Position numbers and translations under genes: made by a program
Notes under the pieces: generated by a model
The model's input: the letters and a program-made list of their open reading frames with translations, nothing else
What the model was told of the DNA's origin: nothing
Databases searched by the model: none
Shown: positions 29,025 through 64,000 of the stretch, piece by piece
How the letters are laid out: each line of letters begins with the position of its first letter
Numbering within the stretch: position 1 is the stretch's first letter
Assembly (NCBI GenBank): GCA_029959195.1
Contig: CP114119.1
Coordinates: 2,852,001-2,916,000, forward strand
DNA length: 64,000 bases
DNA from: Dictyophora rubrovolvata
Taxonomy: Eukaryota; Basidiomycota; Agaricomycetes; Phallales; Phallaceae
Direction: 5' to 3'

Positions 29025-30772
29025 ATGCATTATATGCTGAGCGACGATGTAACCGCTGAAACCATAAACATTATTATCCAAGGAGCATATGAAAAGTAGG
29101 CTCTGTCCACTCGCTCCATACCCAAGTCAAATATCTAACACTTATTTTAGACACGTCAATAAATTGGTCAGTGGTAGTGCATTTGGTGAGTCATTACCCC
29201 ATTTTAAAGATAATTTTTTGACTCAGAAATAAAAACAAGCGTTGCTTCTATACACCACCATCTCGAAGCTTGCGGAGGAAAGGGAATACATTTGGCGGAG
29301 GGAATTTCGTCTTCCCACCTGGCTCTATTTTTTCACAAGATACGGTTCCTTGGTTCAGCAGGGACATATAATTGCATATAACTTGGTGCCATCAATCGTA
29401 AGCCGAACTTTCCTGACATTCGCCAGTGCTGATTCCTGTAGTCGATAATGTAAGGTCCAATATTTCACAAAGCAATCAAACCAACGTTGAAATATCCAAA
29501 AGGTCTTGTAATCTTATCAATTACATGCAATTGTTTTGGTTTGTGGTTTCATTTACGGGTACTCAAGGTCGGTGTATCTCACATTCAACATAAAAATTCT
29601 GAGAGATTTTAGGGCTTTTAATTGCTCGAGCGTATTCACTGTGCAATGGAACCAAAGTCCTAGCTGGGGCTTTAGCTATCGGTTTTGCTTTAGGATTAAT
29701 TTTATCCGTGATTAGTTAAGAAATTAACTTCTCCAAAACATAGCATAAAGATCTTACTATTTATTCAGGTTTGGTACCATTTAGTTCTTGCGCAACAGAG
29801 TAAGATGTGTTCTTGTCTCTCTCGAGTGTTTTACATAATTTTTTAAACGTCCACTTTGCAGCACCGCACTGACCGGTACGATTTAATGGGGGAATATGAA
29901 CAAAATTCGTTCACTGAAATACATACCTAGTTCTACAGACCCTAGCTGCTTTTTTGCAGAATTTCTTCGTTATCTTTACTGATCTCATTGTATTTGGAAT
30001 TTGCATGCGGGAGGTTTGGGGTATATGGAGATTACAACGGGAATCTGGTATTCGAAGTCCAAGCAACTTTATTTCTATACTCTTCAGGCAAAGTACGTTT
30101 TTGTGAACTCTTCCATTAAGCTTATCTAACAAATCATTATTAGGTATATCAAGGTCTGGGTAAGCATTAACGTTCAGCACAAAGATACGTAATATCTCAA
30201 AATTGCCTCACTCTCTGCACATATTTAAGCTTCGTGATTTCTACTTCCTTATCCCTTGGAGTCTTTGCTTTAGTGAGTCTTGACAAGAATCAAACAACAT
30301 GTTTCCTACTCATTTCCGTTTGCCAAGATTGCCCGTGTGAGATTCCTTGTACATACAGTGTATCTCTTATTTGCCGAAACTTTATTAGCACTCAAAACTA
30401 TCGTTATTTGTGCTGGACATTGGAAATGTTCTACAAAATTCGTAAAGCCATTTGTATTGTCATAACGAAACACAATCTCATTTCTATCTTTCTTTTCCCT
30501 GAATCTCAAGCCTCTCCGCCATTCTAGTTGCTGATTTCACCTTGGATCTTCGTCGACGGAATTCCGCATCAATAGAGATTATCAACGTAACTGTACCGAC
30601 GCTCCAATTTCATAATTTGCTTCAGCACGTTCATCAATCCTTTCTTGTTGAAATGCGGACTCCTGAAGATTTGGAGACAGAAGGAAAATGCGGCGATGGT
30701 GACTCAGAGTCTAGCGAGTCCTTTCTGAGGATAAATAAGAGTTGTTGGGTAGGGGGAGCTTCAGCTTCTTGA
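29025..30772 (+). CDS. DUF6533-like seven-helix membrane protein, copy 1 (complete)
   Basis: Fourteen exons: 29025-29095, 29151-29185, 29240-29397, 29442-29449, 29503-29567, 29613-29714, 29769-29799, 29862-29875, 29931-30092, 30144-30159, 30230-30272, 30328-30336, 30389-30441, 30511-30772. They total 1029 bases (342 residues), with acceptor AG everywhere and GT donors. Exons of 8, 14, 16 and 9 bases are required to keep frame. The N-terminal block (EEREYIWRREFRLPTWLY, then FFTRYG) matches the DUF6533 pattern of mushroom membrane proteins. Seven hydrophobic segments can be counted, ending with LSAILVADFTLDLRRRNS and a cytoplasmic acidic tail. The family resembles receptors in topology, but its ligand and function are unknown. 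It heads an array of six relatives. Confidence 0.88.
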
Positions 30773-33370
30773 AGTTAATTTGATTGGCTCGGAGTGCAGG
30801 TATATATGAAATGTGATATTTCAATCAATTTTCTAGAAATGAAACATCATAGGTCTAAACCATGAAATGTACCTTAATTTGTCAACTATTCAATAATTTC
30901 ACCCTCCTTTAGCTTATAGCTTGATAAATGAAAAAAAGAAGGTTTTCTTAACAGTCCGCTGCCAAGCTAGGCGAGCGTTGTGAGAGTGTAAAATGTTCAT
31001 TTATCTGAGAATGTTTTCAGATAACTTACGATCGATTAATTATTGATAAAATCGGTAAATTTTACTTTGCGAACAGGAATCTATTTTAAATTCGTGGCAC
31101 AATTCACGAACGTCGAAATGGACCCAGTCGTCGGAGCTTTAAAAAAAAACACATCTCCCCGAACCAAGCAATCCATCACGTTCTCAGCTCAGCGCATATT
31201 CACAAAATTCAGTGCTTGGCGAATGATTGCGACATTGCATTCCATGGAATCGATATCGGAGACAGCGTAGCAGAGTCCTTGTGGCTTGACAGGGATCGAC
31301 GGGATTGAAATTTGATAGTGATGCGGTAGCGGTGTGGTAGCACGAGCCAGGGTGGAGACACGCATTAACGCGGACGGAAACTTGGATTATGAACGATTTT
31401 CTCATGCTTTTGAATGATCTCATTTCTAAGCTTACAGACGTTGAACTCGGTCCCAACCTTGACACACTTTGGACCACTGCCCTCTTCGGGGAATTATGCG
31501 AAGTATTACTTTCAATACGGTGATACTTTGATTGACATATCCGGTAGATCTTCAAGTGCTGCCTTAAAGCCACTGGTACGGAAGCTTTTGACGCGGACGA
31601 CCGTTGACATGTTGACATGCCAGTATCACTCTATATTCCCCACGCCATTGAACATTCGCACGAAATCCCAGAAACGCCCAAGGGTCCTTCTGATGTCACG
31701 GGAATATATCTTCCTTCAATGTCAAGTGTTATGTGGATAATCTGGTGGCTGCTGCGAGTGTCGAGGGGCATGGCACATACGACATTGACGCAACATCAGC
31801 CATTACTTTTACGTTTGTGACCAGGAGGGTGGGAGTTCATGACGATCTCCGCTTTGAAAACGCTTTGACGATGAACACGGGCACCAAGAGGATCCAAATC
31901 ATGGTTGTCGATGCCTAGCGGCGACCCGCGACTCGTGAACGAAGAGGATCAATCTTTCTATGCGACTTTCCATTCTGAACGTGTGATGATAACTTTGACA
32001 AATCTCATCATTCTTTCCAGAAAACTCCTGAAGGTGTTTGTGTTTGTCGTCATAGCCCAATCTCATGAGTTTTCGCCGGGGTTGGTAGTATAAACGATGG
32101 CATTGAAATATGTACGTGCACATTCTTGGTTTCGACTGAATCTTACAGTGTCACCAAATCTACAATTGAAGAAAAGAGGGTACTTTCAATTTTCCTGGTT
32201 CCAACAAGATGACGTACGGTTGCTATCAATTTGTCTTCTCTGTCTTCTCACCGAAATGGATCCGGAGCTATTCAACATGCGACGTTACCGTTTACACATG
32301 TTGGTCTCAATCATTGGCAACCAGCTTCGACACAGTCGGGAAACTTTCTTCATCTTTTTCTTCTCGCGACGATGACACCATGTGTTCACGGTTGAATACC
32401 GAGACTCCGATGTGCTGCTCTCATTTTGCACATCTTTAATTTTTCTTGTCCCTTATTTCTTTCTCCCTTCATTATGAAAACAAAAACGTTTCTTCGAATG
32501 GCTTAGCACGCGTACGAGCGAACACCGACACCCAATTACATTAATTGATCGAGAATGAGGTGAACGCCGACCATACAGCGCTTTTTCACTTCCATTTTAT
32601 TTTTCGTCGTGGTGCAAATTATGTCTAAAGACATTGTTAGTTCGTTTTCGCTCTTTCTACCGATCACATTCTTTCTTCCCTTTTCGTTTTCTTTTCAATT
32701 CGTAATCTGTCACTTAATTGCCTGCTATCATGGTATCGAAGATGTTTCGTCAGGTGATAAATATCACCACGCGGGACGATCACCACGATGGAAAACTGAT
32801 TCGTCTTACTGGATCATTCGTTGTCCATTGTATTGACATTGTATTGAGATTGAAGACCTTGGTTGGTTTGGTTTCACATCATTCACTCAAAAATTTAGTC
32901 CCCTCCTGGCTATAGGATTTTTCGACAATTGATTGCCACGAAGACCGGAATCCGACGTACGCGATAATACATTTCCATCACTACAAGCAAATCGCATTGA
33001 ATTAGCTTTTCCACGTTCTCTGTCGATTGAATATGATGGATGTTCTAGTGGCGAAAATAGAAGTAAGAAGCTGATATGATCGATGATAAGCATTATCACT
33101 GATGATTCAACAGGAACGGGCCACGGGAACACATACATATCGAATAAAATGAATTGAATGAGATATCTTTGCCAAAGGCACCACCATATATTCATCCGAG
33201 TCCTAATTTTAAAGTTCATACGCCCCTTGTCTTTCTACTAATATACGGCGTTAAATAAGAGTGACATTCGAACGATGGTTTATCAAGTTTTTCAGAGACA
33301 ACTCTGATAGCAACTCATCTTCAGTCGAAAATCCTCAGGCTCACCAGTTCTCAAGCTTGTACCAAGTTAG
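30773..33370. other. Intergenic region, possible decayed gene 31050-32450
   Basis: Blocks that read like protein occur in different plus-strand frames (31119-31270; 31388-31520; 31733-31918; 32097-32375), but no consistent splice sites or domain link them, so a degraded gene is possible. 33047-33190 shares a diverged copy with 41560-41745 (both include ATATCTTTGCCAAAG), suggesting that flanks were duplicated together with the membrane-protein genes. Confidence 0.3.
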
Positions 33371-35095
33371 ATGAACGACACAATAAGCAACATGACCGCT
33401 GCGTCTATGGCAGACATTCTTATCCAGGAAGCATACGAGACGTAAGTATTTTTTTCATACCAACGTCAGGCAATCAAAAATCATCCTCTTAGATACGTCT
33501 TCAACCTGTTTAATATCTGTGCCGTCGGTGAGCCCACTATCTCACTTCTAGAATTGACTTTATTTATGACCAAGAACAAAACCGTTAGCACTTCTTTTAT
33601 ATGCTAACGTGTCAAAGTTGTCTCAAGAAATTGAGCATATATGGGGAAAGAGACTTAGCCTTCCTAGTTTGCTGTATATTTTTACGAGATATGGACCATT
33701 AATTCAGCCGGGGTTCACGCTAGGGGGTAGCTTGGCACCGTCAATAGTAAGTCGAACCTTCATGACGTCTTGTATCTCTAACTTTTTGCAGTCGATGAGG
33801 TAAAAAGAAAAATCATTGTGCCTAAATTAAAGCTAAAAACTGAAAGGTCTTGTAATATTCTCAATGATATGCAATTACTTTGTAATGTGCTGTCGTATAT
33901 CGGCGGTCAAGATAGGTTCTCAGCCCGTTCAATTTCACCGATAAGGAATTTATAAAGCACTTTAGGCTTATTGATTGCTCGGGCATATTCTCTGTGCAAA
34001 GGAAATAAAATATTTGCTGGAGTTTTAGCCATCGGTTTTGTTTTTGGATTGGGTTTATTCCTGCTCAGTAAAGAGTTAAATATTCTCTTCAAAGGCACAA
34101 AATGGCTTACTATTTTTCAAGGTGCAATACCCTCTAATCCCTGCACTACAAGGTAAGACACATTGTTTTTGTTCGAAGCTTCACTTTAATCTCTATGCGT
34201 AGCTCCACAATTCCCGGTACGGTATCAATGGTCAGTTCGGAGTGCGATTCATTCACTAAAATTCGCGCTTAGCTTTTGTACCCATTGCGACTTTTGTGCA
34301 AAGTTTATTTGTCATCTTCACTGATCTCGTTGTATTTGGGATCTGTATGCGTGAAATTTGGGGCACATGGAAACTGAAGCGGAAAGTCAGTATTCAGCGT
34401 CAAAGTGATTTGGTCTCCATACTCATTAGACAAAGTACGTCTTTATAAAACGTTCCAATGAGACTTGTTTAACAAAGGATCTTAAGGTGTCTTAAGGTGT
34501 TGGTGAGCATTATTTCCTGCAAAGATGGGCATGCCAAGATCGTCTCATATTCTACACGACTCAAAAAGCTTTGTGGTTTTTATCACGGTATCTTCTGCGG
34601 TTCTCCTGCTAGTAAGTTTCACGCGTCAGCTATGAAAGCACCCACTTATAGTGATTTTTCAAGATTTACACAGTAAATCCTTCGACTTTTTCCTTATATT
34701 TCCGATCCACCAAACTTTATTAGAACCCGGGATCAGTTGTGGTGGATCTTAGAAGCCTTTTGCAAAATAGGTGGGACGATTACTCGTCATATCAAATGCA
34801 ACTCAATTTTACTTCCTCCTTTACCAGTCTTTCAGCAATTTTGATTGCTGATTTTACCTTGGAACTTCGTCGACGCAACTCCACAGCAATTCAAACTAAC
34901 GAGATAACATTACCGTCCCTTCGTTTTCAAAGCGTTCTCCAACACGTTCATCAATCCTTTCTTGTAGAAATGGGGACTCCTCAGGAAGGTATACAACCGG
35001 AAAGAAACGGTGATGATGACCTTGTCGAGCTTGCAGAAATTACTGAAGCTGTTCTTGCTCCTACTCGCGACGCATTAAATCAAAAAAACCTTTGA
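33371..35095 (+). CDS. DUF6533-like seven-helix membrane protein, copy 2 (open, one odd splice site)
   Basis: Same 14-exon layout as copy 1. Exon sizes of 71, 35, 158, 8, 65 and 102 bases were located (33371-33441, 33493-33527, 33589-33746, 33792-33799, 33847-33911, 33966-34067), and the last two exons are 34724-34770 and 34828-35095. Summed with the conserved middle exons this gives 1029 bases (342 residues). The base pair after exon 5 is AT instead of GT; a GT six bases upstream (33906) would keep frame and shorten the protein by two residues. The DUF6533 block reads QEIEHIWGKRLSLPSLLY and the last helix LSAILIADFTLELRRRNS. Probably expressed, but splicing of exon 5 needs RNA evidence. Confidence 0.8.
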
Positions 35096-37041: not shown

Positions 37042-38771
37042 ATGAACAATACAGTAAACAACGCGGAGACTATAGAGGGTGTCATTCGGGAAGCATTTGA
37101 GGCGTATGTCGAATCTCTTTCTCTCTATATCGGACCCAAATCTCCAATGCTTATTTCACTGATAATAGATATGCCATCAAATTAGTTGGTAGAAGCTCTC
37201 TTGGTGAGCTTATCATCTTCATCACGAAAACAATCTTTGTGAACGAAAAAAAAATAAAGTACTCCTTATATATGCTACCATCTTGAAGTTTCCGGACGAG
37301 ATAAAATACATATGGGCGAGGCGATTTAGTCTTCCCACTTGGCTCTATCTTTTCACAAGATACGGATCTTTGGTTCAGCAGGGGCTTGTCGTTGGATATA
37401 ACTTGGTACCATCGATAGTTAGCCTAAACTTCTTTCCATAACTTCATTCGCCAATACTGATTCTAGCAGTCACAGAGGTAGGATCCTGTATTATTGATTA
37501 TTTGAAAGGCTAAGCAGCTATAAGGTTCTGTAATATTCTCAATAACATACAATTTGCTGGGTATGTGCTATTTTATACGGGCGTCCAAGGTAGATGCTTC
37601 CATTTTAAATCATCATTACCTGTGAGACAAATGAAGCACTCTAGGCCTATTAATCGCTCGAGCATATTCTCTAAGCAAAGGTAATAAAATCCTAGCTGGG
37701 ATGCTGGCCGTTGGTTTTGCTGCAGGATTAGGCTTATCCGCAATAAGTAAAAAACTTAGTCTCCTCAAATGATAAGATAATAAAATTCTTACTACTTGTC
37801 CAGGTATAACACCATACAGTCCTTGTGCCATGAAGTAAGAATGTCTTCTTGTTTGGATTATTCGAAAATTCAATATTTTTTCGCTCATAGCTCTACATTG
37901 CTCGGTATGATACCAATAAATGAGCAGCTTTAGTTGAGGTTTCACTGATACATGCTTAGCTGAGCAATCCCTAGCAACGTTTCTGCAAAATGTATCCGTT
38001 ATTTTTATTGATCTCGTTGTATTTGGCGTTTGCATGTGGGAAATTCGCGATATGTGGAGGCTGAAAATGGCGGTCGGCCTTGAAGGTCCAAGTAGCTTGG
38101 TTTCCATACTCCTGAAACAAAGTACGTCATTCGAAAGCTCTCGATGAAGTTTTTGTCAAACAAGACATCCTTAGGTGTACTAAGATCTTGGTAGGCATTC
38201 AATTCAAAGATATACCCATCTTACGATTGGTCTCATTCTCTATGTAAGCTTCGTGATTTCCACCTCGGTATCTGTCGGAGCTCTCGTGCTAGTAAGTCCT
38301 GAGCATCAACTATAACTATACCTTATACTTACCGTCATTTCTTCAGATTGACCATGTAAGCACGTCTTTTCATCCTTGCGTGCTTTAAATTCCTTAGTTG
38401 ATTAACTTCAATAGAATTCGACAACGGTAGTAACAGAAGTCCTAAACATTTTACAAAACTGGTGAGATCATTTTGTCAAATTGAACGCAATCCCATTTCC
38501 AACTTTTCCTTTCCCAAGTCTCTCAGCCATCTTAGTTGCTGATTTTACGTTGGAACTTCGCCGGCGTAATTCCACAACGATTGAGACCGCTAACATAACG
38601 TTGTCGATCCTTGGACTCCAAACTGTACTTCGGAATGTCCATCAATCTCTCCTCGTTGAAATGGGAACCCCTGAAGACATATTTCCGGATGAAGAGAGCG
38701 ATTATAATGATGAAGATGATGACATTGCCAGTTCTATTAACGATGGCGAAGCTGCTGCCGCTAGTGCGTAA
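37042..38771 (+). CDS. DUF6533-like seven-helix membrane protein, copy 3 (complete)
   Basis: Exons 37042-37103, 37169-37203, 37260-37417, 37470-37477, 37525-37589, 37645-37746, 37804-37834, 37891-37904, 37960-38121, 38175-38190, 38249-38291, 38347-38355, 38415-38461 and 38519-38771 total 1005 bases (334 residues). Eleven internal exon sizes (35, 158, 8, 65, 102, 31, 14, 162, 16, 43, 9) are identical to copy 1 although the sequences have diverged, which is strong support for the model. The core reads DEIKYIWARRFSLPTWLY and LSAILVADFTLELRRRNS. The acidic tail (ESDYNDEDDD) differs from the other copies, so the cytoplasmic end evolves fastest. Function unknown. Confidence 0.88.
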
Positions 38772-41998: not shown

Positions 41999-43351
41999 CT
42001 ATACTCGGTTGCGGCCCGATCTTTCCCTTGGATTTCTCGCGGCCTCGCGTCGCGCTCTCGTCTTTGGTTCGTCGAAGGATCCGTATGGGTTTTTGAACCG
42101 CTTCGTGTTGTTGACAAACTCGAATAGGAACTTCATCGCCTTGGGACTTGCTAAGAGTGTCTTCTTCGGGATGATGTGCTGGTGATAGTGTTGCTGCATT
42201 TTGAGTCGGTGTACGTCGTACCTCGGGCATTTCATGAGGTAGTGTGTAACGTCTTCTCTCTCCATTTCGCATGCCCTGCACAGTGGTGACTCCGCTTTTC
42301 CTATTTTGTGTAGGAAGTGGTTCAGCGGTATGTGTCCTGTTCTCAGCTGCATTAGTATTGAAGTGTTACGACGTGGGAACTTATTTGTCAGTTTAAGGAA
42401 GCCCTTGCCCGGTAATGCACCGTCTATCTCTCTTATGCGCTCGTATCTTGGAGAGCTCTCCCATCTTGCTACCGCCCGTTCCTTGAGGCTTGTTTCTCTG
42501 GCCTGCCTTGCAGCTGATCGGCTGGTTGGGAGCTCTTCTATCTGGGTGAGGTGGTTGCTGTTTAGATCGCCTTCAGTGATCGACGTGGCCGCTTCTTTGT
42601 CTGCTTCCTCGTTTCCCTTGATCTCTTCGTGCCCTGGCGACCAAATCAGCTTTATCCTCTTCCGGTGTGTTTCTTGCAGGGTTTTTATTTGCCTCTGAAT
42701 CTGCTCCACCAGATATTGCCCTGGTACTGCTCTCTGTCTTTGGGTCGCCTGGATTGCTGCTTGGTTGTCTAGCACTATGTGCACTTGGTTGGCATCCCGG
42801 ATACCTTCCGCTATATCTAGTGCCAGTATTATCCCCACTAGCTCTGCCTCGTACACAGTGTGTTCCTCTGCTGTGCCGAGTAGCTTGTGTCTCACGTGTT
42901 TTCGCCCTCTGCTGTCCCAATATACTGCTGCTGCTCTGACTTTCCCATCTCTGCATGATCCGTCAGAGTATACAATCTGGCTTCCCATATACTTATCTAT
43001 ATTTTTCACCGCTTTCTCTCTGTTCCCTTCGATTTCTATTTGGTGAGTGCTTGTCCACTTTGGCCCCCAAATACTTGGTCTGATCTTTTCATATGCGTTC
43101 GGTTCTATCTCACACCCATGTAAGATGTCGTGCAGTGGGCTTCTGTGCCTCTTCACATATCGTTTTGCCGCTCTCTGAACCTGCTTATGCAAAACATGTG
43201 AGTCTGGGACTGTTGCTAACCTCGTGCCCGCTCTAACTATTACTCTCTCCACTAGTAGATCAAATGGCAGCAGGTTCGCATGTACATCCAGTACATCTGT
43301 GGCTGTTGTTCTCGGTGCCCCTGTGATTGCTATTGCTGCTTCTCTCTGCAC
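41999..43351 (-). pseudogene. LINE ORF2 C-terminal part: RNase H and zinc-knuckle region
   Basis: 450-codon open frame. The RNase H catalytic set can be read as IVYSDGSCRDG, VYEAELVGI, VLDNQAAI and KGNEEADKEA, followed by a CxxC...H...C knuckle and a basic tail. It is the longest intact part of the LINE and is listed separately because it could be mistaken for a host RNase H. It lacks its own start context and continues upstream into the reverse transcriptase across several stops. Confidence 0.85.
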
Positions 43352-45649
43352 TCTGGTGAGTTTTTACACTATGCCTCTTGCCCCCTTTGTCCCGCTAACT
43401 GTAGGTGCCAGGAACACGTTTGCTGCATATAGCATTTTGGGTGCCGCTACTATCTGGTAGAACCTCCTCATGTGTTTGGTAGGTGTTCCCTTTGTTAGTT
43501 TTGTCAGTCTCCTGAATTGGCTTACCTATCCTGTCCCTTTTTGCAGCACGTAGTTAGTGTGGTCTATGAACCTCAGTTCTTCATCCAGCATAACTCCTAG
43601 GAACTTGTGCTGGCAGGTTGGCTTTATAGTTCTGCCATTAACTTATATGGATGGGTGTTTGCATGGCTTTGTTTTCCCTCCTCCGCTTCCATCCACCCCT
43701 TGTCTCCTAGAAAAGCTCATTAGTGCAAATTTTTCGGTTGCAAATTTGCAATTGTGCTCATCTGCCCATTGGCTTGCTCCGTGTGTGCCATCCATCAGAC
43801 ATTGGAGGGTGTTCACGGCTTCTTCCAATGTTTTTGCTCTGGCCAGTAATGTGGTATCATCTGCAAAAATTACCACTTCGATATCTTTCCTGTCTCTGGC
43901 TAAGTCCGCAAGTGCTGCATTGTAAAAGGCAAAGCATAGTCCTGACTCTGGCCTACCCTGGTCTAACCCTATCTTTAGGTCCAGTGGGTCTGATTTGTAG
44001 TTGTCAAAGGTGAGCACAGTCTTTCTCCCTATTGTCACTGCTGTTAGCCAGTCTGTATATTGCTGTGGGACCCCTCTTTTCCTCATGTCATGTGCTAACC
44101 ATTCTGGTAGCACACTTGGGAAGGCTGCTTTTATGTCTAGGAATAGTGCTGCTACTTCTTCTCCCCCCCTCCATGCGTTTTTTATAAATGACATAGTATG
44201 CTGTAGTGCGTCTGTTGTTGTACATTCTGGGCGACATCCAAACTGGGTGAGAGGGAGGATCCCATAGCAGTCTGCAAAGGCGAGTAGATCTTCTGATACA
44301 CATGATGACAGCACTTTACCTATTGTATCTAGGAGGGCAATTGGTCTGTATGCATTTGGCTCAGTATAGTCCAGTTTGCCTGGTTTTCGCATCACTATGA
44401 TCTTTGAGTCCTTCCATTCTTGTGGGAAGTATCTTGTGCAGAATGTGGCTCAGAATAGTGGTCCTATGATTGGTACAATCATCTGGGCTGTTTTCTTTAG
44501 AACCACATTTGGTATTCCGTTGTTACCTGGTACCTTGTGCGGTTTCAGGCACTCAATTGCTCTATGGATTTGTACATCCATTATGTGCTTGAATTTGAAC
44601 TTTTCCACCGGGTACACATAATTTGCTGGTAGTTTCTGGTATTCCCCTATATCTGGAAAGAAGGTTCTAAAGAGTAAGTTAGCCTTTTCTTCATCCTTTT
44701 TTGTGTACATTACTATTCCGTCTTCACTTCTTCTCTTCAGTGCTATTGTCTTGCTTGCTGATCTGTCTGTGGGTTCACCTGTCACATATTTGTATGCCAT
44801 CTACATGGTATGTTTATCTAGGTTTGCCAGGAAGCTATCCCAGTGGTCTCGTTTGGTTTCGTGTATCCTCTATGTGAACTTGTTCTGCTACCTTTGCAGT
44901 GTCTCGTGGATCAGGTCTTGCAGGTCATGTCAGCGTTTTCTGGCTCAATTTCTGATATGTTTTAGTTCCCTGTATAGACCTGTGAGTTCATCTGTCCACT
45001 ATCTCTTTGCATACCTTGTTATTCGTGACTGGGGAACTATTTCTCTGACTGTGCTCTTCAGGGCTTCTGTTAGCACTGTCATCCTTGCATTGAATTCCCC
45101 TTGTGTTTCGAAGACTTCATGTGTAGGTATATCTTCAATCTTTGGTTGGAGGTTTCTCCTGAATTCCTTCCAATCTGTTTCCCTGAAATTGTAGATTTCC
45201 CTGTCTTCTGTTTTTTGCACATAGGTATCGATCTGCGTGATGATAGGGAAGTGGTCTGTTTTTGGAGGGGTCTCGTCTTCTACTATTTTACATGTGATCA
45301 GATTATCAGCGATGTCCTGTGTTGCAAACACATTGTCTGGCCTTGTGTAGTTACCTGTGCTCATGGCTTTGAGGGTTGGGGTATATCGAGGTAGGATCAT
45401 CTGTAAACTTAGGTTGTCAGTGTGCTCTATTAATATCTGGACCTTATCTAGGTTTTCTTGTGTGAACAAGTAAGCGTTTCTTAGCTCGTCCCATTGGGGG
45501 TGGTGTCTGTTGAAGTCTCCAAGCCATATGATGTGAGTGTGGCTCTCCCTTGTCTTGTTCATTTCCCTGTTCGTTGCTACTTGTGCCTTCTGTAGCACCT
45601 GTGAATGTGATATGTCACCATATATATTTATTATTAGTATGTCACCCAT

Positions 45650-46055
45650 TGTCAGGGCTACTCTCTCAGACTAGAGGGAGGGGATCCTAAGCAAGATATA
45701 TTCTAGGAATAATACTAACTCACCTAGAGGGAGGGGATCCTAAGAGAACAAACTTAGAGATCCCTCCTCTAGGGCTACTAACTATATACTATGAAAAACG
45801 GCAAAGGCCACACGTGGCCTTCAGTTCATGGACTGGGCGCGGATACACACTGGTCCTGGACTTTTAGCTGGGGCCTAGGCCATGGCTCTGATGAAAACGG
45901 GCACTCAGCGCTCGTTGGAGGAAAAATGGGAATACGGAAGGAGAGGGAAATGCAAGAGATGGGATAGAATACAAGAAATATGAAAATAAATAAAATAGAC
46001 CAGAACCAAAGATAAATGTAGAAAAATAAGGGGACGACACTAGCGTACCCTGACA
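45650..46055 (-). mobile_element. R1 repeat in the LINE with 5-bp target duplication CCCAT
   Basis: Full-length 406-base copy bounded by TGTCAGGG and CCCTGACA. CCCAT occurs at 45645-45649 and 46056-46060, and the LINE endonuclease is collinear across the insertion. This is the second perfect 5-bp duplication for R1 and shows that R1 was mobile after the LINE landed. Confidence 0.93.
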
Positions 46056-46586: not shown

Positions 46587-49524
46587 CTTCTTATGCTTTA
46601 TGAGACATATGTGATCTGCTTGCATTAACACAAAACAAAGCCAACTCAGCGGCCCGATTGTTTCTTATATGTAATAGATATGTCTTGACCTTACTCAATA
46701 CCTGTGTCCTTGGTGAGCATACTATTTATCTCATTGTAGTAAAAGCAACTTCATGATAAAATGTCTCTCAGCACTTCTTGTTTATGCTACAGTGTTAAAG
46801 TTCTCACAGGAAATAGAATACATATGGTCGAGGCAATTTAGTCTTCCTGCTTTGCTTTATTTTTTTTCAAGATACGGATCCTTGATTCAGCTGGAACTGG
46901 ACCTTGGATATGTCGCAAAATCCAACAGTGCTGGATCCGCGTCTGATCAGGCCTTCAGGCTCGGTCAGGAAGGGATATTCAGGGGTTTTCCTGACTGAGC
47001 CTGATTGGGCTGATCAGGCCGAAGACTTAGATCCGGAAGGAGGCCAGACTGATCAGGATGAGGCCAGGCTGATCAGAATAGGGCTACAAGTATCAGGATT
47101 TGTAGGGACAGATCTGGATTACTTGCAATGTATCAGCTCAGATGGTGCAAACAAGTAAATTCATGTTAAGATAAACTTTTATTATTACTAGTTAATTATG
47201 TAATCTTCAACTATGTACAGAGCACGTGAAGTAGACTATTTTAAATACACTACTAATTTTTGATTACATCCTCAACTCAATATACTTCATTTTTCATGTC
47301 AGAACTAAGTGTTAATGTTGGAATTAGTCAAGTTCATGAGCATTGTCAAGTAATACTCACATATAATCCAACTACGCTGCGCAACAGGAATTAATTATTC
47401 TGTAAGATTGGTTAGAGCAACAGTCAAAGTTACTAGAGCGCCAGATGTGACATACTTGACCCGAAGCTTGGATATTGACTAGTTGGTGACAGGTGCTTCA
47501 TGTGATGGAAGGGGGTAAAGGAAGGTGGTGATGGTTGTGTGTCCCCGAAAGTCTTATATGAAGTTTGGTCAGGATTATATAATTTGTCACTATGGAACCA
47601 ACCCTGTATTGATTGCATCGACAACCGAAGTCATTTATCAGCACATGGGCACTGTTTGCTGTTGTCTGTATACGGCCTCAGCCACTTGTAATTTTTTCAT
47701 TCTATTCAGACAAAGAGTTTGCTGTTCAACAAATTAATGAAAAAAGTATACCAGCGTGCCTTTGGCATCTCAGAAAAACATTCCAAATTCAATATGGATT
47801 TTGTGCAAATACTGCCGCTCGAGCTTCCTTTGATTGACTCTCTGCAAATCTCATCAGAACGATGAGAGTGTGCTCCTCTTGCCCCCCATTTCTTCTTCTT
47901 GGTTTACATATATACTCATTGGGACAGCGCCACCTTGAAAGGCCTCTGTTCCAGTTTGAACTGCGCATTGACATCGCCGGTGCTGCCCACTATGCTGCAT
48001 TGATCATCAATGACATGGTCGACTCGGATGCCTTTTGCGATTTATTCTCAAACAATGGCTGTACCAAACAGATATATAATGCTACAACATGTATATTCAG
48101 TCAAATTAATAAACAGTTTCCTAAATTTTTAAATGATGGTTCTAGCCCCCAACAGCATCCCTCAGCTTTAAAAAGATTCTTTCTGTTGCCCGCAGGAATT
48201 CACTCAGTCCGTCAGTTGCCGGCAAGGTTTGACCGGAGTCCGTCAGTCACCAGCTGGACTTCACTCAGTCCATCAGTCGTCGGCAAGGTTTGACCGGGGT
48301 CCATCAGTGGCCAGCAGGTTTTCACTCCAGTCGGTCAGTCACCATCAAGACCCTCAGGCTCGGTCAGATTGGACCCTTGCCTGATCTGGCACTCTCGGAT
48401 TTTGCGACATATAACTTGACACCGTCAATAGTAAGCTAAACTTCTGTAGCATTCACCAGTACTAATTCTCTCAGTCAGTGAAGTAGGATCTTATATTATT
48501 ACCCATGTGTTATAAGTTTAACAGAGCCGACAGGTCTTGTGAGATTATTCTTGACTTAGAGTCATTTTGGTATACGTTGTCATATATCGGTATTCAAGGT
48601 AGGTTTCCGATTTATGTAATATAATTCCTAAAGCATGAATGAAGCACTTTAGGCCTATTGACTGCTCGAGCATATTCACTTTGCAGAGGAAACAAGATCT
48701 TAGCCGGAGTGTTAGCCATTGCTTTTGTTTCAGGATTGGGTTTATTCTTGCTTTGTAAAGAATTTAAATTCTCCAGCAGCACATAGTTAAAATCCTTACT
48801 AATTTTCCAGATTTGATACTACTGAGACCATGCAGTGCGGAGTAAGTAAGCTATATGCATCAGCAAAGTTCATTCATTAAAACATACCTTCAGCTCAAAG
48901 TCTCGTTCTTACTTTTGTGCAAAGTGTTATTACCATCTTTGTTGATATACTTGTATCTGCCATTTGCGTATGGAAAGTCTGGGGCATGTGGAAATTAAGA
49001 CGCGAAACTGGTATTCAAAGCCCCAATGGCCTCGTTTCCATAATTTTGACACAAAGTGAGTGTTTATAAACTCTCGATGAAATCCACTTATCAGGGAACA
49101 ACTAAGGCATAATACGCTTGTGGTGAGTACTCAAATTGAGTATGTCAGGATCATCTCACCTCAGACTTGAAAGTTTTGTGGTCATTCTTTCCACTGCTAC
49201 GACAATCTTTTCAATTGTAAGTCAGTTCAAACGGCTACAGTACCTGCTTACTGTGTTCCCTCAAGGTTGCGCATGATGTAAGTTCTTAGGTTTATCTTCT
49301 TCTCTTCCCCTACATGTCACCGAACTTGGCCAGAATTATATATCAACCATTCTAATCGATCTCCAGAACGGGTAATTCTATTTTAATCATAATTTACAAC
49401 TTAGTATTGGCTTCTTAACTTCTTTCAAGCCTGTCAGTTATTCTAGTCTCTGACTTTACTTTGGATCCCGGGATGACGGCGAAATTGTCGAGGAACAAAC
49501 TGTTCCTGCAGTTGCTAGTGCTTA
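46587..49524 (+). pseudogene. DUF6533-like membrane protein gene, copy 4 (pseudogene)
   Basis: Remnant of exon 1 at 46587-46607 just after the LINE (reads ...LYET), exon 2 at 46678-46712, exon 3 from about 46756 (ALLVYATVLKFSQEIEYIWS frame) interrupted at 46911 by a transposon and resumed at 48410, then the 8-base exon at 48475 and exons 5-7, 9, 10 and 11 by homology. The 14-base exon 8 is missing, the last exon has lost most of its tail (SVILVSDFTLDP), and the LINE separates the promoter from the body. Clearly dead. It still preserves splice sites (CAAG|GTAGGT after exon 5), so inactivation is fairly recent. Confidence 0.8.
46911..48409. mobile_element. 1.5-kb non-autonomous DNA transposon with perfect inverted ends
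   Basis: Ends TGTCGCAAAATCC and GGATTTTGCGACA are perfect 13-bp inverted repeats, flanked by TA on both sides (46909-46910, 48410-48411). The membrane-gene exon reads through cleanly if the element and one TA are removed. Subterminal zones are packed with short repeats: CTGATCAGG-type units at 46940-47100, and CAGTC(C/A)GTCAGT...GGCAAGGTTTGACCGG units at 48200-48360. The largest frame (47862-48293) shows no transposase motif. A TA target suggests a Tc1/mariner-type partner, but subterminal repeats of this kind also occur in CMC/Plavaka elements. Confidence 0.85.
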
Positions 49525-50152
49525 ATAATAAGTGAATATGGCTGCTCATTCTCGACATGCATTCTGACTAACGCGGAATATGATATTAGATTTTAAGGGG
49601 GGAAAACGTAAAGTTTGAACTTAAGAGCCATCTCCACTTTCATTTAAAGAATGAATTTACAAAAAAAAATAGTTGTTCTTTAGCACATTTTGTTTATTCG
49701 TTTACTCTCATTCTCCTTTCCTTACACTCAATCTGCGTCACTCAGACTCTGAATCCAAATGATTATCCGGACAGGAAGTTTGAAATTTCAACGTTTGAAC
49801 CGTCGAAATCTACATAATTCAGCCCTAGAAGGACGAGCTCGATGGTGTCAGTGTCCGTAAGGTGATTTGAAACCAAGAAGGCATGGTATAATGATAGCTG
49901 AGCTTTGCCGTAGCTAACGTTTCGTAAGTCATGCGCTTTCATTGGGAGTTTGAAGTAGCGTTAGGTTTACACGAAGGCTTGGTTACCATCACTGGTCACC
50001 GGTCATGCGTAATTCGCTTCTGTCTATGTCAAGGACTGTTGTTTTAAGGGTAACGGTGTTTGTAATTTGGTATGAATAACCATCCTTTTATTAGTTAGAC
50101 AGGAAGGACTTTCACATCAGTAGTAGTGACAAACCTACATACCCTGAATCTA
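49525..50152. other. Intergenic region
   Basis: No gene supported. Convergent 3' ends of copy 4 and of the NIF-domain gene lie here. Confidence 0.45.
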
Positions 50153-51256
50153 TTATGATGTAGTGAAACCTGGTATCAATGGAATATTCAGCTGAGAAAC
50201 TGCTTCTTTTCCCTTTCCTACCCAGTAATCGAAACATGGCTCGTGTTCGAACCATAAAGGCTTTTGCTCTGAAGAGTTATCCCGATCGATACCTGCACCA
50301 GAGAACTCCGACGTATCGTTGACAAAAATGGTGTCTGAAGGAAAATTATCAACTAATCCCACGAGGGGAGAGAACACGGCGCGTTGCCATACCTTTTGAA
50401 AAAGGCCCATGATCGGCCCAAAGACCGCCTGAACGTAACCAGCCGGCTACGTTTGTTTGATACTTCATTTCTTCCAAGATGCCAATGGCTGCCAACAATG
50501 TACAATCGTATCGCATCTGTCAGGTAACATATGAAATGAGATGTTTTTTTAGTTTTAAATATAAATTCGTACGAAGGCGCTTCTTTGCTTGTAGACTTGC
50601 CGATCTGTGTGCCAGAGGCTTTTGGCATACTCCGGCACACATAAATGGTTGTATGGTTGTAGACGCGTCTTCAGCGGCGAATTGTCCATAAGTAATGTAG
50701 ATGTCGCGTTATGGGCAAAAGCAAGATCTAATTTCTTCCAGGGCTTCTCTAGATCTTTAAGGGTCTGTACCTTACGATCTGATTGTTTATGATAAAAATA
50801 AGAAAACATCGGATAACGAATGAACATACTATATTGCTCCTGATTTAATCCAAGGGTATCCCGCGCCCAAACAGCTTTGAGATCAGATTTACTTTGACCA
50901 AAACATTTCGTGACCATGATATCCACATTGTCAGGCTGGGCCGAGCTCCACACCATGACATCCAGCCACATTCTAACAGATTCATGAAATAAATACGAGC
51001 AAAATATCGACATGTAAGGTCGAATATGATTAGGTCGTTTAGCTCCCTTTTTGAATTTGTGTTTAGGCCGCCATAACAGTGTTCCGTTAAGATCGAGAAT
51101 TAGAAGCTTTTTAGAAGGCTCGGAGCTTTTGAATGATACAGTTTCTGATATGGAAATATACGAAACAGAAGGATTCACGTATGCCGCGCTCATTTCAGAA
51201 ATGAACTTCTTGAAGATGTGGCCGGTGCGCTGTCGATCGAATTTTTTTCTTTCCAA
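50153..51256 (-). CDS. FCP1/NIF (HAD-type) domain protein, probably a pseudophosphatase
   Basis: Three exons, 51256-50573, 50516-50393 and 50352-50153, total 1008 bases (335 residues) with GT-AG introns of 56 and 40 bases. The FCP1-homology core has motif I LLILDLNGTLL, motif II region VMVWSSAQPDNVD, a conserved AVWARDTLGL, and motif III TLLMDNSPLKTRLQPYNH. Active HAD phosphatases have DxDx(T/V) in motif I; here the second Asp is Asn (DLNGT), so acid catalysis is probably lost. Related fungal proteins with DLNGT exist, from family knowledge. The C-terminus (PLWFEHEPCFDYWVGKGKEA) follows the usual layout of the fungal family. The start could also be the internal Met at 51193. Confidence 0.87.
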
Positions 51257-53377: not shown

Positions 53378-55043
53378 TCAGATTCTGAGAATATCATCTT
53401 CGTCTCTTGCCTCCGTGTCTAAACTAGCATCTTCAGGCGTTCCAACTTCGACGAGAAAGGACTGGTGAATATGCTGCATAACACTTCGGAAGTGTCGGAA
53501 GCGTCATGTTTGTGGCTTCGAATGATCTTCGCGGAATTGAGTTGGCGAAGTTCTAATGTGAAATCTGCAATCAAGATCGCGGACAACCTTTTGGGAAGCG
53601 AAATGAGCAAAATGTATTTTAAAGGTTGAATATGATATTCTTACGCGTTTTGAAATGTGCCTAATCGCTGTCGTAAAATGGAAACTTCATTTAAAAGACT
53701 GAGGAAGGGCCTACAGTTAATATCTAAAAAAAAGATCAGAAACTACACACGTCATGTCTAATTTATCCGATACTTACTTGCCCAAGGATTGTACAAGTGA
53801 CGGTAAGAACGATCACGAAGCTAGCGAATTCAAATTCGAACCCTCAGGCTACTGCGATAAAACATTTCATATCGAGTACTTACCGACATCTTAATATACC
53901 TAGGGAATGTGACCGGATACAGCAGTGTCATCAATAGACGTATCAAAAAAACGTACTTTGCTTGACGAGGACGGAAACAAAGTCATTGCCAAATTGAATG
54001 CCACTTTCACGCTTTAGTTTCCATGTACCCCAAATTTTCCACATGCACACGACAAATATGATGAAATCAGTAAGAATGGTAGAAATATTCGAAAGAAGAT
54101 TAATCAGATTTGACTCGGCTAGAGTCTGACATTAACCTAACTCCTGTCTTATTTGAAGGTGCTTACGTACCGGTGAAACTACAAAAGTTGAATAATCAGA
54201 TTGAGATATTGGGCAATGACAAGGTTTACAGACTCTGTGAGACATCCGTTGAATGCAATTATACCTGAAACAAGAATGAGCTCCTTCTCGTATCATCTGA
54301 TTCAGAGAAAGTTTTTTACTAAACAGTAACAAAATCAAACCCGCAAGGAAACCGAAAGCTAAAGCTCCCGTTACGACTTTGTTCCCTCGGCAAAGTGAAT
54401 ACGCTCAAGCAACCAGTAAGGCTAGATAGCTCATAAATAAGCTACAACAAATGAAGCGGGTTTAAAAGTATCTACCTTGGATGCCAATGTACGATATCAC
54501 TGACGTAGCATTTGCTGCGTTAGCGAGAATGTTACAAGTCCTAAGTTGGCTGTATTAGAATCCCATGGAACCCTTAGTAGGATCATAGGACTCAGGTTCC
54601 AGGCAACAATGTATTAAGAAAATATCAATAACCAGGACCTCATTAACGAACACCTTCAGCCCACCTGTAAAAAATTGACCCCGAGACCAAATCCCTGGCT
54701 AAATAAATCCCCATATCTCGCAAAGAGGTATAGTAGAGATGGGAGCATGAGCCACTTGGACCAAATATATTCAACTTCTTGAGAAAACCTCGGCAGTGCA
54801 GCATAGAACAAGAGTGCTGGTATTATCGTTCATTATGAAACCTTCAATTCGAGGTTCTGTAGCTCACTCAGAGCACTGAAAAAAACCAACTTGAAGTTGA
54901 AAACAAAGCTGTTGATATAGATAGCCGATAAATGTTCGGATGGAATACACATATAATATATAAGACACGTACATGTCATAGAACTCCTCCGTTATGAGTT
55001 CCATAATCTGGACGTCGGTGGCGTTATTGCTTGTGTTGCTCAT
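53378..55043 (-). pseudogene. DUF6533-like membrane protein gene, copy 6 (frameshifted, opposite strand)
   Basis: Minus-strand relative of copies 1-5. The start ATG is at 55041-55043 (MSNTSNNATDVQIMELITEE), with exon 3 around 54690-54820 (QEVEYIWSKWLMLPSLLYLF), an exon 9 equivalent at about 53975-54065 (VVCMWKIWGTWKLKRESG), the exon 11 equivalent at 53785-53830 and a last exon with LSAILIADFTLELRQLNS. In the last exon one base is missing near 53490 relative to copies 1-3, so the conserved HIHQSFLVEVGTPED tail continues in another frame to a TGA at 53378. It is therefore probably a pseudogene, or a variant with a changed tail. It is the only copy in inverted orientation. Confidence 0.7.
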
Positions 55044-60542: not shown

Positions 60543-61847
60543 GTGATTGATAATGATGATTTACCCACAAAAATCGACTCAACGTGTGCTCATGTTGAAG
60601 GAAGCTCTGACGAAGCAACGAGGAAGGAGAGGGCCGAGGAGGCCGCGGCGGCGGCATATGCAGCCGAGTCTGCGTCTGTGAATGCTGCTGACCAAGCAGG
60701 CTGTGCGGGCTTAGCAGTCCTCCCAAAAATTACGACATTAACGCCAACCATGCCATTGTTCCCCAAACCGATCAGTTCAGCTATGCCGTTTATACCAAAA
60801 CCCAAACCTGAAATACCGACTTCTACAAGGCCTCAACAACATGTTTTAGACCAAAACTCTCAAATTGGATCTAACTATCGACCAATATATATACCACATC
60901 CCAACGCTGTCCCAGATCCATATGGACACTGGCGTGAAGCATCACAGCTGCACTCGTCGCAAATCGACTCGTTAGATGCTTGGAAAATACCTCGCTTATC
61001 TCTCGTAATTGAGGATTTATCTAATCCTGCAGTCGATGTCTTTTTGCGGAATGTTAAACCTCAAGAAGTGATGCGTAATGCCGTAATCTCTGTGCTGGAA
61101 TGCCTTTATACGGTCCAATCGCAGCCAAGAAAGTAAATCATTCGCGAATAACGGTGCTATATATGTAATTCGTAATTTGATCCTTTATTTTTTCCACGTC
61201 TAGCGTCACGTCCGTAACTGTCATTATACGTGATTTTGATGGCGTGGCTCATACCACCGGTTCAGCCAAAAACGATAACGATAAGGAGATTCATTTCTCA
61301 ACCAGACATATTAAAGGTTGAATTTTCCATGTTCACCCTTTACACCATGACACTAATGACAGCGTTTAGCTAGTGAAGCCAATGCCCGCACCGAGATAAA
61401 TGGAGTTTTAGTTCACGAAATGGTTCATTGTTACCAATACAACGCACGAGGAACATGTCCAGGTGGTTTAATTGAAGGTATCGCTGGTATGATCTAGATT
61501 TGTTGTCCGTTGTTCGTTTTAATACGTGGCCGTTTAGATTTTGTTCGTCTACGGGCCTCATTGGCACCCCCACATTGGAAACGATCTGCACCCACAAACA
61601 AGGATAAGTGGGATGCAGGATACGAGCGAACCGCGTATTTTTTGGACTGGATTGAAGTACGTGTTATGTTCCTTATCCAAACAGAACACACGCGTTAACC
61701 CCCGGAAAGAGAGTAGTCGGGCCAGGAACGATACAAGCTGTCAACGAGGGCATGCGCAAAAGTCGATATGACAATGGGCGGGTCTGGCGGGACGTTACTG
61801 GTCAAGGTGTTGAAGATCTGTGGATCGCTTATTGCACCAGTTTTTAA
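60543..61847 (+). CDS. Basic-secretory-protein-type zinc metallopeptidase-like protein
   Basis: Exons 60543(?)-61132, 61204-61316, 61370-61486, 61538-61656 and 61710-61847. The C-terminal 180 residues match the plant/bacterial/fungal basic secretory protein family (PF04450 pattern): VTVIIRDFDGVAHTTGS, a zinc-binding HEMVH (HExxH) in GVLVHEMVHCYQYNARG, then PGGLIEGIADFVRLRASLA and the C-terminal WRDVTGQGVEDLWIAYC. The frame is open from 60543 through an Ala-rich coiled segment (EEAAAAAYAAESASV) and a proline-rich linker; the first in-frame ATG is at 60750, so the true start is either there or in an upstream exon I could not find. No signal peptide is visible in the part seen. Hydrolase activity is inferred from the motif. 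Confidence 0.8.
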
Positions 61848-62770
61848 ATTTCATTAATCCTTATTTCATGTGGATGTGTATTACTCATTGTGATGATCGT
61901 TTTCTCAAATAATTTATCAGACTATAGCAGTTGGAACCTTAACGATGTTGAGCCTCCAAAGAATGTGTCGGCTGTATTTCAGGATCGACAGGCCCGAGAC
62001 TATAACGGAATGTACACCCTTGGTAAGGTTTTACATATAAATTTTTTCTCCCCTGACCATGTCCCCATTCTGATTTCTGGATCATCCATTAGGCTGTGCC
62101 TGACTGAATATTGGGGTAGTCTGTAGTCTCTTCTCCCTCTTCTATTTCCGTGGAAACTCGGAGCATGTTCATAGATTACCTGATTACCTGATCGTAAACT
62201 TGATAGGCAACAATTTTTACAACAAATTTTGCTGTGATGTCCATAATTGCAATGATGCGATCTATCATTCAACCGAAGTCCAGAATGACGAGAACATTAA
62301 CAAGTTAGACCTATTGATCAGGAATTGGGGGGGCTTTATTTTAGTTGGTCGACTCCGAAGGAATAGCTTATAAGCTCCATGATTACACCCAAGCTGGATC
62401 AAAACTTCTTTGTATACGTGGCCTTCACGAAAATATCGGATTTTTACCCCATCATCTCATCAAGCAAGCACGTGCCATCCAGTGCGTATTTATTTTTTGA
62501 TCAAGATGGAGTAGCGAAATAAATCAATCTTCGCAAGTTTTTGCGCTTACGGAGTTGCGGTAGAAAACGAGCCAGCGGTTGAGGTGTGGCAGGATCAGCG
62601 GCGGTACTAAAGGCGCGCAAACCAATGGTTTCAGCCACACATAGCTGATAAGGCATCACAACACGATATATGAAGCTAAGCTCTCAAACTTCCCAAATAT
62701 ACATATATTCCGGTTCCTTTCAGAATTGACGGACGAAAACCTAGTCCTGCCATAACCATTAACCTCTGTA
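61848..62770. other. Intergenic region
   Basis: A frame at 61890-62126 (MMIVFSNNLSDYSSW...) ends near a GTAAG donor-like site but has no recognised domain or second exon. No gene called. Confidence 0.35.
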
Positions 62771-64000
62771 ATGAACAGTTCAAATCTCAACATAACTGCT
62801 GAAACCATAGACAGCATTGTACATCAAACTTACGAAACGTACCCAACTTTTCTCCTTTGTCTACTTTTCCCCGATTAATTATGTGTTTTAGTTATGTCTA
62901 CGACCTAATAACCACCAGTGCTTTCGGTAGGGCTATCTGAAACTTGGGACGCCTTATGCTTACGGGAATTTCAGCGCTTCTCTGCTACGCCACAGTACTG
63001 AACATTGGACATGAAGTGGAGTATATATGGCGGAAACGATTCAGTCTCCCTACTCTACTTTATTTCTTTACGAGATACGGGAGTATCATTGATCAATGCA
63101 TTAACCTCGCAGTTAACTTTGCACTGGAAGTAAGCAAGAAGTTACCTTTAATCTTTGTGAATACTACTAACCGTCCATAGTCGCTTCGGTAAGATTTATG
63201 AACTCAACGAGCACAAGAAAACTGACGATCTCTTAAGGGTCTGCAATATACTTGCTGATGCAGGAAATTCTGTGTCGGTGATAACATCTCTGGGTGTCCA
63301 AGGCTGGTGGCATATCCCCTGTTTTTGATAAGAACATTCACATTATGGATCATAGGCTTGTTGATCGCTCGGGCATATTCAATATCTGGGGGAAACAAGA
63401 CTCTAGGCGGTGTTTTAGGAATCAGCTTCTCTTTGTCGTTCATTCTGTATCTCGTCGGTAAGAGGGAATGAATTGATTTAAAAGCCATCGAGGGGGTCTT
63501 ATTTCTAATTAGAGATCATAAAATTCAATGGATGCGCTAATACAAGGTCGGGGATAACTCTAGTTGCTCTTCACTCTCATTGAAATAACTCATAAAATTT
63601 TATTCGGATTTGTAGTACCAATAGTACGTTCGTCTTTCCTCCCGGGGGATTAATATCGCCGTGCTCATTCTCCGGCAGTAATTGAATTCACTATACTTGT
63701 TATCAAGGATTTTATGACAATTTTCATTGAATCTCTTGCTTTTCTTGTCTGTATGTGGAATCTTTGGGGCACTTTCAAATCAAAACGTGAAAGTGGTATT
63801 CAAAGTAGTGAGGATCTTGTATCTACGCTTGTTAAGCAGAGTAAGTTGAATGACTTTTGCAATCACTTTGAGACTATATCCTAAAGCGAGTTTTAGGTAT
63901 ATTACGATGTTGGTAAGCATTGATATTTGACTACCAAGGCATCTTCATGTTGAACCTCGCAAGCTTTGTACTTGTTGCTTTGGTCACTTGTACTATTATT
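62771..64000 (+). CDS. DUF6533-like seven-helix membrane protein, copy 5 (5' part, runs off the window)
   Basis: Exon 1 is 62771-62838 (MNSSNLNITAETIDSIVHQT), exon 2 is 62892-62926, exon 3 starts at about 62982 (ALLCYATVLNIGHEVEYIW), and the 8-base exon TCGCTTCG lies near 63181. Exons 5-7 follow, with a short exon 8, exon 9 (about 63690-63840, LVCMWNLWGTFKSKRESG), the 16-base exon 10 at 63898-63913 and the start of exon 11 before the edge. All parts seen are in frame. After exon 5 the expected donor reads CAAG|GCTGG, so either a GC donor or a GT seven bases upstream is used. The three N-glycosylation-like NxS/NxT sites at the N-terminus fit an outward-facing start. Confidence 0.8.

Follow-up and report, generated by a model that had tools for sequence, protein, structure and literature searches.

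Organization of the locus

The window, a 64,000-nt stretch of Dictyophora rubrovolvata DNA (GCA_029959195.1, contig CP114119.1, positions 2,852,001 to 2,916,000, forward strand), carries six related genes (Table 1). PF20151 (DUF6533) matches were found by six-frame search at all six places where the first-pass annotation had proposed copies, at window positions 29239, 33585, 37259, 46768, 54710 (minus strand) and 62971. The N-terminal DUF6533-type block was borne out by a Pfam search, in which copies 1 and 3 scored 36.3 and 47.2 bits, respectively, against a curated PF20151 cut-off of 24.1.

Table 1. Genes and features of the array (window coordinates).
Feature	Position	Strand	Description
Copy 1	29025..30772	+	14 exons, 342 aa; DUF6533 E 5.9e-9; P0001 76% identical
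Copy 1 exons 1-7	29025-29095, 29151-29185, 29240-29397, 29442-29449, 29503-29567, 29613-29714, 29769-29799	+	
Copy 1 exons 8-14	29862-29875, 29931-30092, 30144-30159, 30230-30272, 30328-30336, 30389-30441, 30511-30772	+	
Copy 1 exon 4	29442..29449	+	8 nt (SIM); aligner and P0001 match
Copy 1 exon 8	29862..29875	+	14 nt (TALT); aligner and P0001 match
Copy 1 exon 10	30144..30159	+	16 nt; aligner and P0001 match
Copy 1 exon 12	30328..30336	+	9 nt (IAR); needed for P0001 match (IAR)
Copy 2	33371..35095	+	Same plan, 1029 nt; function doubtful
Copy 3	37042..38771	+	Same plan, 1005 nt, 334 aa; appears intact; DUF6533 E 2.4e-12
Copy 4	46587..49670	+	Broken, exon 3 interrupted; two sides aligned separately
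Element in copy 4 exon 3	46908..48412	+	1505 bp; 30-nt terminal inverted repeats, 87% complementary
Copy 5	53378..55043	-	Inverted; model with two frameshifts and two stops
Copy 6	62771..64000 (to 64508, beyond window)	+	14 exons, 345 aa; open, in frame

Copies 1, 3 and 6 look intact, copy 2 looks doubtful, and copies 4 and 5 look broken. The earlier count of two dead copies among six becomes two to three damaged, because intron 5 of copy 2 (33912-33965) begins with AT instead of GT; if retained, this intron would introduce an in-frame stop (read by eye). Copy 6 has a GC donor at intron 5. The element within copy 4 has near-full-length relatives on C5 and C9 (95-96%).

Exon plan and microexons

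The internal exons of copies 1, 2 and 3 measure 35, 158, 8, 65, 102, 31, 14, 162, 16, 43 and 9 nt, and all three proposed exon totals (1029, 1029 and 1005 nt) were recovered. The claim that every copy shares this 14-exon plan exactly stands for these three copies and fails for copy 6, which differs at four internal exons (35, 155, 8, 65, 102, 34, 8, 162, 16, 43, 33 and 38 nt, exon 8 thus being 8 nt long and exon 12 33 nt); its exons 3, 4, 11 and 12 were placed manually where the aligner had merged them. Exons of 8, 65, 102, 162, 16, 43 and 12 nt are still recognisable downstream of the break in copy 4, and exon 8 of copy 5 is apparently 8 nt long.

A splice-aware aligner, which was fed a protein profile and no exon sizes, returned all plan exons in copies 2 and 3, and in copy 1 all except the 9-nt exon 12, which it detected in the other two. 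Copies 1 and 3 were part of that profile, alongside eight public proteins, which leaves copy 2 as the one fully independent case in this alignment. P0001, an intron-free public ORF, aligns to copy 1 without gaps across all four microexons, and the residues that these exons encode are present in both P0001 and P0008, which come from other genomes. P0001 looks like a transcript, the status of P0001-P0009 being judged solely by the lengths of the ORFs and of their contigs. A third protein search added nothing to this set. In the array genes, as expected of fungal microexon genes, canonical introns flank exons no longer than 16 nt, and each of the two introns bordering exon 10 recurs in 26 of 27 gene models.

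The long introns of sibling loci other than copies 1-3 were scanned for AG-N(L)-GT and compared with shuffles. The exon-4 slot gave a peak at L=8 (20 of 22 loci; shuffle mean 1.7) and the exon-12 slot at L=9 (17 of 23; shuffle mean 1.5), while at the exon-8 slot L=8 occurred in 13 and L=14 in 6 of 24 loci (shuffle mean 1.2 each). The introns of the array genes are common to siblings elsewhere in the genome, and the plan is not specific to the array. Among siblings the sizes vary by whole codons, exon 8 being 8 or 14 nt and exon 12 being 9, 12, 15 or 18 nt. This variation rules out the exact microexon sizes as proof of a special splicing constraint, such as the first-pass annotation had considered; homology and the reading frame suffice to explain their retention. 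An intron-depth test gave 0.003, a value that treats introns as independent though they are not.

The rarity of such small exons in fungi had also been overstated. In Phanerochaete, nearly one third of P450 genes are reported to contain microexons, the smallest exon being 6 bp (PMC1184071), and CYP5141A1 is mentioned as having an 8-nt exon (PMC12940212). Like the present genes, those of Phanerochaete form a basidiomycete family in which very small exons are flanked by introns of roughly 50 nt (PMC1184071). Here, in contrast, the same microexons occupy the same places throughout a large family of membrane proteins.

Three of the four microexons (8, 14 and 16 nt) are not multiples of three, and skipping any of them would shift the frame and could switch the putative receptor off. 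Regulation of microexon size or inclusion, for which Trichoderma Xlr2 provides one known fungal example (PMC11121469), nevertheless appears improbable here: exons 8 and 12 vary by codons between siblings, like free coding sequence, and the residues present in P0001 and P0008 point to inclusion.

Family size and selection

The genome contains 144 DUF6533 hits. The DUF6533 family includes SNB1 from Coprinopsis cinerea, reported to be necessary for fruiting bodies (PMC10949477). The array genes resemble it in the DUF6533 block close to the N-terminus and in two predicted features, the seven helices and the outward-facing N-terminus. The distinction from SNB1 is drawn from copy number: homologs of SNB1 are described as numbering 1-5 per genome with no major expansion (PMC10949477), so most of the 144 hits should lie outside its orthogroup. 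DUF6534 proteins, which have been proposed as novel fungal GPCRs, likewise form a large basidiomycete seven-helix family described as having no known ligand (PMC12842992), but they constitute a separate Pfam family with 9 hits in this genome.

The proteins of copies 1-3 are 52-56% identical with dS of 1.1-1.3, and P0001 and P0002 nest in the tree within the clade of copies 1, 2, 3 and 6, all of which argues against a recent burst of tandem copying. Copy 5 clusters apart from these four, with the C7 genes. The array is one small group of genes in a family of very large size. Five of the six pairs among copies 1, 2, 3 and 6 have dN/dS of 0.27-0.31. Together with the 76% identity between P0001 and copy 1, these ratios weaken the rapid turnover proposed earlier, although the breakage behind that proposal is real, with a stop or frameshift in six of 27 modelled genes and copy 4 in addition. 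The copies, the exon plan, the shared introns and purifying selection can all be read from the DNA.

The damaged copies could also be taken to mean that the array is mostly pseudogenes and its exon plan overfitted chance. In four loci scoring below 70 the free aligner proposed 2-nt exons, and so it can invent tiny exons at poor matches. This explanation is strongly disfavoured and very improbable: copies 1, 3 and 6 stay open over 342, 334 and 345 aa, dN/dS is near 0.3, the microexons of copy 1 align gaplessly with P0001, and the blind AG-N(L)-GT scans recover the microexon sizes.

A candidate 2-nt exon

In a sister branch of the family, the exon-8 slot contains the pattern AG|NN|GT, with enough space on either side for a full intron, at 9 of 14 loci (shuffle mean 0.55), and the two letters vary from locus to locus. 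The support is computational and consists of sequence statistics and protein length. The main branch shows the pattern in 3 of 27 loci versus 0.98 expected, which leaves the sister branch to carry the case. At seven of the nine loci the aligner itself had picked the 2-nt exon and thereby helped to define the scanned region; a separate control was run for this bias. When the acceptor was banned, eight of the nine loci lost only 0.1-4.5 in profile score and the ninth lost 10.3. When P0008 guided the alignment, C3:2827721 lost 14.5, and a frameshift was needed in the alternative. First-run models of four of the nine loci (C6:2538857, C6:885713, C9:1192090 and C3:2710454) contain stops, and some of the nine may therefore be pseudogenes or poorly modelled. 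A second profile, circular in being trained on these loci, kept the 2-nt exon in six and lost it in C2:2948963 and C6:885713. The aligner also puts 2-nt exons in some poorly modelled loci with scores below 100. A further candidate, at C7:655462, is ambiguous.

Exon 8, which encodes part of the second outer loop, may thus shrink from 14 to 8 to 2 nt across the family; we see an even chance that a recurrent, inherited 2-nt exon occurs in this large mushroom family of putative class D-like orphan receptors. Among the matches listed from the open-licence literature, with subscription journals and preprints outside the scope, no 2-nt exon in a fungus was reported. One-nucleotide exons have been described in Fusarium CYP621A (PMC12940212) and Arabidopsis APC11 (PMC4674806), where, as apparently here, the reading frame requires the ultra-small exon; in Fusarium an over-long intron also gave it away. 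The present candidates differ from these in that they appear to vary in sequence between paralogs and that the slot holds 8 or 14 nt in siblings. If genuine, they would mean that intron-recognition splicing imposes virtually no minimum exon length in fungi and that such genes are misread by standard annotation. With lengths of 14, 8 and apparently 2 nt in the array and its siblings, this slot may offer a natural series for the smallest exon that a fungal spliceosome can include. Exons of 8 nt, and apparently of 2 nt, readily escape annotation, so gene models of this family may be wrong in other genomes.

Predicted fold and probable receptor function

The seven helices proposed earlier were found in AlphaFold models of two relatives, P0001 and P0006, whose confidence is moderate (pLDDT 70.3 and 64.7; pTM 0.66 and 0.61; only ten sequences). 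The receptor-like character is likewise supported by a predicted fold similar to Ste2 and a variable outer face. The helix arrangement of both models resembles that of the class D GPCR Ste2 (PDB 7ad3), which was the top VIA-align row for each, 4-5 Z units ahead of the others. In contrast, sequence identity to Ste2 is 7-9%, and no Pfam GPCR model, 7tm_1 included, matched the ten relatives even at E 10; the Ste2 and STE3 models (PF02116, PF02076) gave no match to copies 1 and 3 at E 1 or to the ten relatives at E 10. The sequence of copy 3 matched no solved structure, and Foldseek searches with the predicted models gave no E-value below 0.001. P0001 has no class A DRY motif, with ARAY (residues 117-120) instead at the inner end of helix 3, and its helix 7 contains neither NPxxY nor, as read from the sequence, LPLSSMWA, the motif described for helix 7 of class D1 (PMC8942848).

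In the helix bundle the outer half is variable between copies, as are the outer loops, and the inner half is conserved, with conservation of inner loop 1 not above average. We assign a probability of roughly 0.6 to the reading that the family consists of seven-helix membrane proteins, most likely receptors whose GPCR fold is class D-like (Ste2-like), that the array is a small cluster of them and that their microexon-containing mRNA is joined by intron recognition. Ligand binding, G-protein coupling and the splicing mode are what we infer. With the N-terminus predicted to lie outside, the outer half and outer loops would bind a different ligand in each copy, and the conserved inner half would contact a cytoplasmic partner shared by all copies, probably a G protein. 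Splicing would recognise the short (~55 nt) introns as units in joining the 14 exons of each mRNA, of which four measure 8-16 nt, so that exon size would hardly matter; purifying selection on the reading frame would keep exon sizes constant or restrict their changes to whole codons.

A less likely reading accepts the genes and their splicing but regards the proteins as seven-helix transporters, channels or lipid-handling proteins that share the GPCR bundle shape. It is consistent with the lack of matches to GPCR-family sequence models and the weak Foldseek E-values, as well as with the middling Z that helical bundles can attain. The authors of the SNB1 study state that SNB1 does not conform to GPCR classification and left transporter, channel or receptor open (PMC10949477). 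On the other hand, the lead of Ste2 holds for two models whose proteins are 37% identical in sequence, and a variable outside with a conserved inside suits different ligands and one shared partner. On the receptor reading, 144 domain hits, a Ste2-like predicted fold and a conserved inner and variable outer face would make the family a candidate repertoire of orphan fungal receptors. In inner loop 3, the indel count (125 cells) reflects almost entirely one 4-residue deletion private to P0001.

Exon plan of the arrayed genes

At least 144 PF20151 (DUF6533) matches, counted as matches rather than genes, were found in the 28.24-Mb genome (11 contigs), and six of them fall where the first-pass annotation had placed a six-copy array. 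That observation is real, with corrections. Gene structures were derived using a splice-aware protein-to-DNA aligner, which worked from proteins, a splice-site consensus and an allowed intron range of 38-150 nt and was given no exon sizes. Alignment of copy 1 with the copy 3 protein produced internal exons of 35, 158, 8, 65, 102, 31, 14, 162, 16 and 43 nt and missed the 9-nt exon, which was recovered in copies 2 and 3. One run of copy 3 guided by copy 1 differed from this plan in exons 7-9; a profile combining eight public proteins with copies 1 and 3 returned the full plan in copies 2 and 3. The reported exon totals of 1029, 1029 and 1005 nt for copies 1, 2 and 3 are correct. The exact plan had been ascribed to all copies; it holds in copies 1-3, but not in copy 6, where four internal exons differ (exon 3, 155 nt; exon 7, 34 nt; exon 8, 8 nt; exon 12, 33 nt), each by a multiple of three. 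Exons 3, 4, 11 and 12 of copy 6 were placed by hand, the aligner having merged them; the gene is in frame over 1038 nt, extending beyond the window end. Intron 5 starts with AT in copy 2 and with GC in copy 6.

Coordinates of the array and neighbouring features in the window
Feature	Position	Strand	Remarks
Helix-loop-helix DNA-binding domain ORF	25304-26413	minus	E 1.9e-11; upstream of array
Copy 1	29025		
Copy 2	33371		
Copy 2, intron 5	33912-33965		
Copy 3	37042		
Non-LTR-type retroelement pieces	41999-45670	minus	RNase H, reverse transcriptase and endonuclease domains; in the interval from copy 3 to copy 4, immediately before the latter
Copy 4	46587		
1505-bp insertion	46908-48412		inverted repeats of 30 nt at its ends; interrupts copy 4 within exon 3
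NLI-interacting-factor-like phosphatase domain ORF	50555-51256	minus	E 1.3e-9; between copies 4 and 5
Copy 5	53378-55043	minus	
Copy 6	62771		
Copy 6, intron 5	63303-63355		

A search of ~5.8 billion predicted proteins yielded nine related intron-free ORFs (P0001-P0009). Eight are 321-342 aa long; the ninth has 226 aa and is 96% identical to P0006. The contigs that they fill are 0.99-2.0 kb in length and bear the source tag 'lgn', whereas copy 1 spans 1748 bp including 13 introns, so they are most simply transcript assemblies. Copy 1 shares 76% identity with P0001, and its four microexons align without gaps (SIM/SMM, TALT/TALT, SISRSG/SILRSC and IAR/IAR). The 8-nt exon of the sibling locus C3:2827721 is likewise backed by P0008 (PLK/PLK).

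History and decay of the array

A tree was built from 31 rows (five window copies, 18 siblings and eight public ORFs); P0009, P0010 and any row containing over five stops were excluded. Copies 1, 2, 3 and 6 share one clade (97/83) with P0001, the sister of copy 1 (100/100), and P0002; therefore the array is older than at least the split from the P0001 source. Copy 5, whose model has two frameshifts and two stops, groups with genes of contig C7 (96/90). The element inserted in copy 4 has near-full-length relatives (95-96% identical) on C5 and C9. A relative in two pieces lies on C3, and other contigs carry shorter matches.

The DUF6533 family in the genome

Within this unusual family the array is nothing out of the ordinary. 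Contig C7 (2.43 Mb) alone carries 49 of the 144 matches, spanning 71851-2171161, several in runs of 3-10. Models were built for 57 of the 138 matches outside the window and for five window copies; 27 of them (22 outside, five window) scored at least 480. Decay within the family is real, with a stop or frameshift in six of the 27. Seven introns occupy the same place and phase in 27, 26, 26, 26, 26, 25 and 23 of these models. Introns flanking exons 4, 8 and 12 are placed exactly in 7-15 of the 27 models, since these small exons are frequently merged in the alignment. Blind scans for AG-N(L)-GT, excluding copies 1-3 and compared with shuffles, found L=8 at exon 4 in 20/22 loci (shuffle mean 1.7), L=8 in 13/24 and L=14 in 6/24 at exon 8 (1.2 each), and L=9 at exon 12 in 17/23 (1.5). 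A scan with stricter flanks including copies 1-3 gave 11/27 and 8/27 at exon 8, and 20/25 for L=8 at exon 4.

Exact exon sizes had been taken to imply a constraint on splicing. Sibling exons change size by whole codons, and the constancy in copies 1-3 therefore needs no such constraint. Recognition of short introns as units, a general feature of fungal splicing, would account for exon size being of little consequence. In models scoring at least 590, 248 of 280 introns are shorter than 80 nt (median 55 nt). The coding sequence is under purifying selection, with dN/dS of 0.27, 0.28, 0.31, 0.28 and 0.30 in five pairs among copies 1, 2, 3 and 6 (the sixth pair was saturated). Nor are such small exons as rare in fungi as proposed, being not exotic among basidiomycetes according to PMC1184071.

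A candidate 2-nt exon

The most novel testable point, sequence-based, is a candidate 2-nt exon at the exon-8 slot. It was sought in a sister branch of 15 lower-scoring loci (120-480 in the first run), of which 14 offered a region that could be scanned. Nine of these 14 contain AG|NN|GT flanked by 38 nt or more on either side (shuffle mean 0.55; none of 2000 shuffles reached nine), and every other length from 0 to 26 is found in three loci or fewer. On full realignment 7/14 real loci were modelled with a 2-nt exon; with shuffled intron interiors the mean over 25 rounds was 0.16 and the maximum 2. The two letters in the nine loci are AT, GC, GT, TA, AG, AG, AG, TA and CA. Banning the site under a loose profile cost only 0.1-4.5 in eight of the nine, and models of four of the nine contain stops. 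The main branch alone has a 2-nt exon in 3/27 loci against 0.98 expected, which is not significant. In its member C3:2827721, guided by P0008, omitting the exon lowers the score by 14.5 and requires a frameshift, which is best explained by a putative 2-nt exon (TT). As precedents, exons of 1 nt have been reported from Arabidopsis (PMC4674806) and from Fusarium CYP621A, where the clue, as here, came from an intron that was too long and a disrupted reading frame (PMC12940212).

Relatives and predicted function

The DUF6533 copies are likely receptors, and a class D-like fold is predicted for them; no report of such a fold for these proteins was found in the open-licence literature searched. SNB1 of Coprinopsis, a DUF6533 protein with seven predicted helices, is needed for fruiting-body patterning by a mechanism not known according to PMC10949477; the open-licence literature searched yielded no functional work on other DUF6533 relatives. 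DUF6534 proteins, with nine matches in this genome, have been put forward as new GPCRs (PMC12842992). All 17 STE3 pheromone-receptor matches lie on contig C11 (864346-1013087), presumably a mating-type receptor region.
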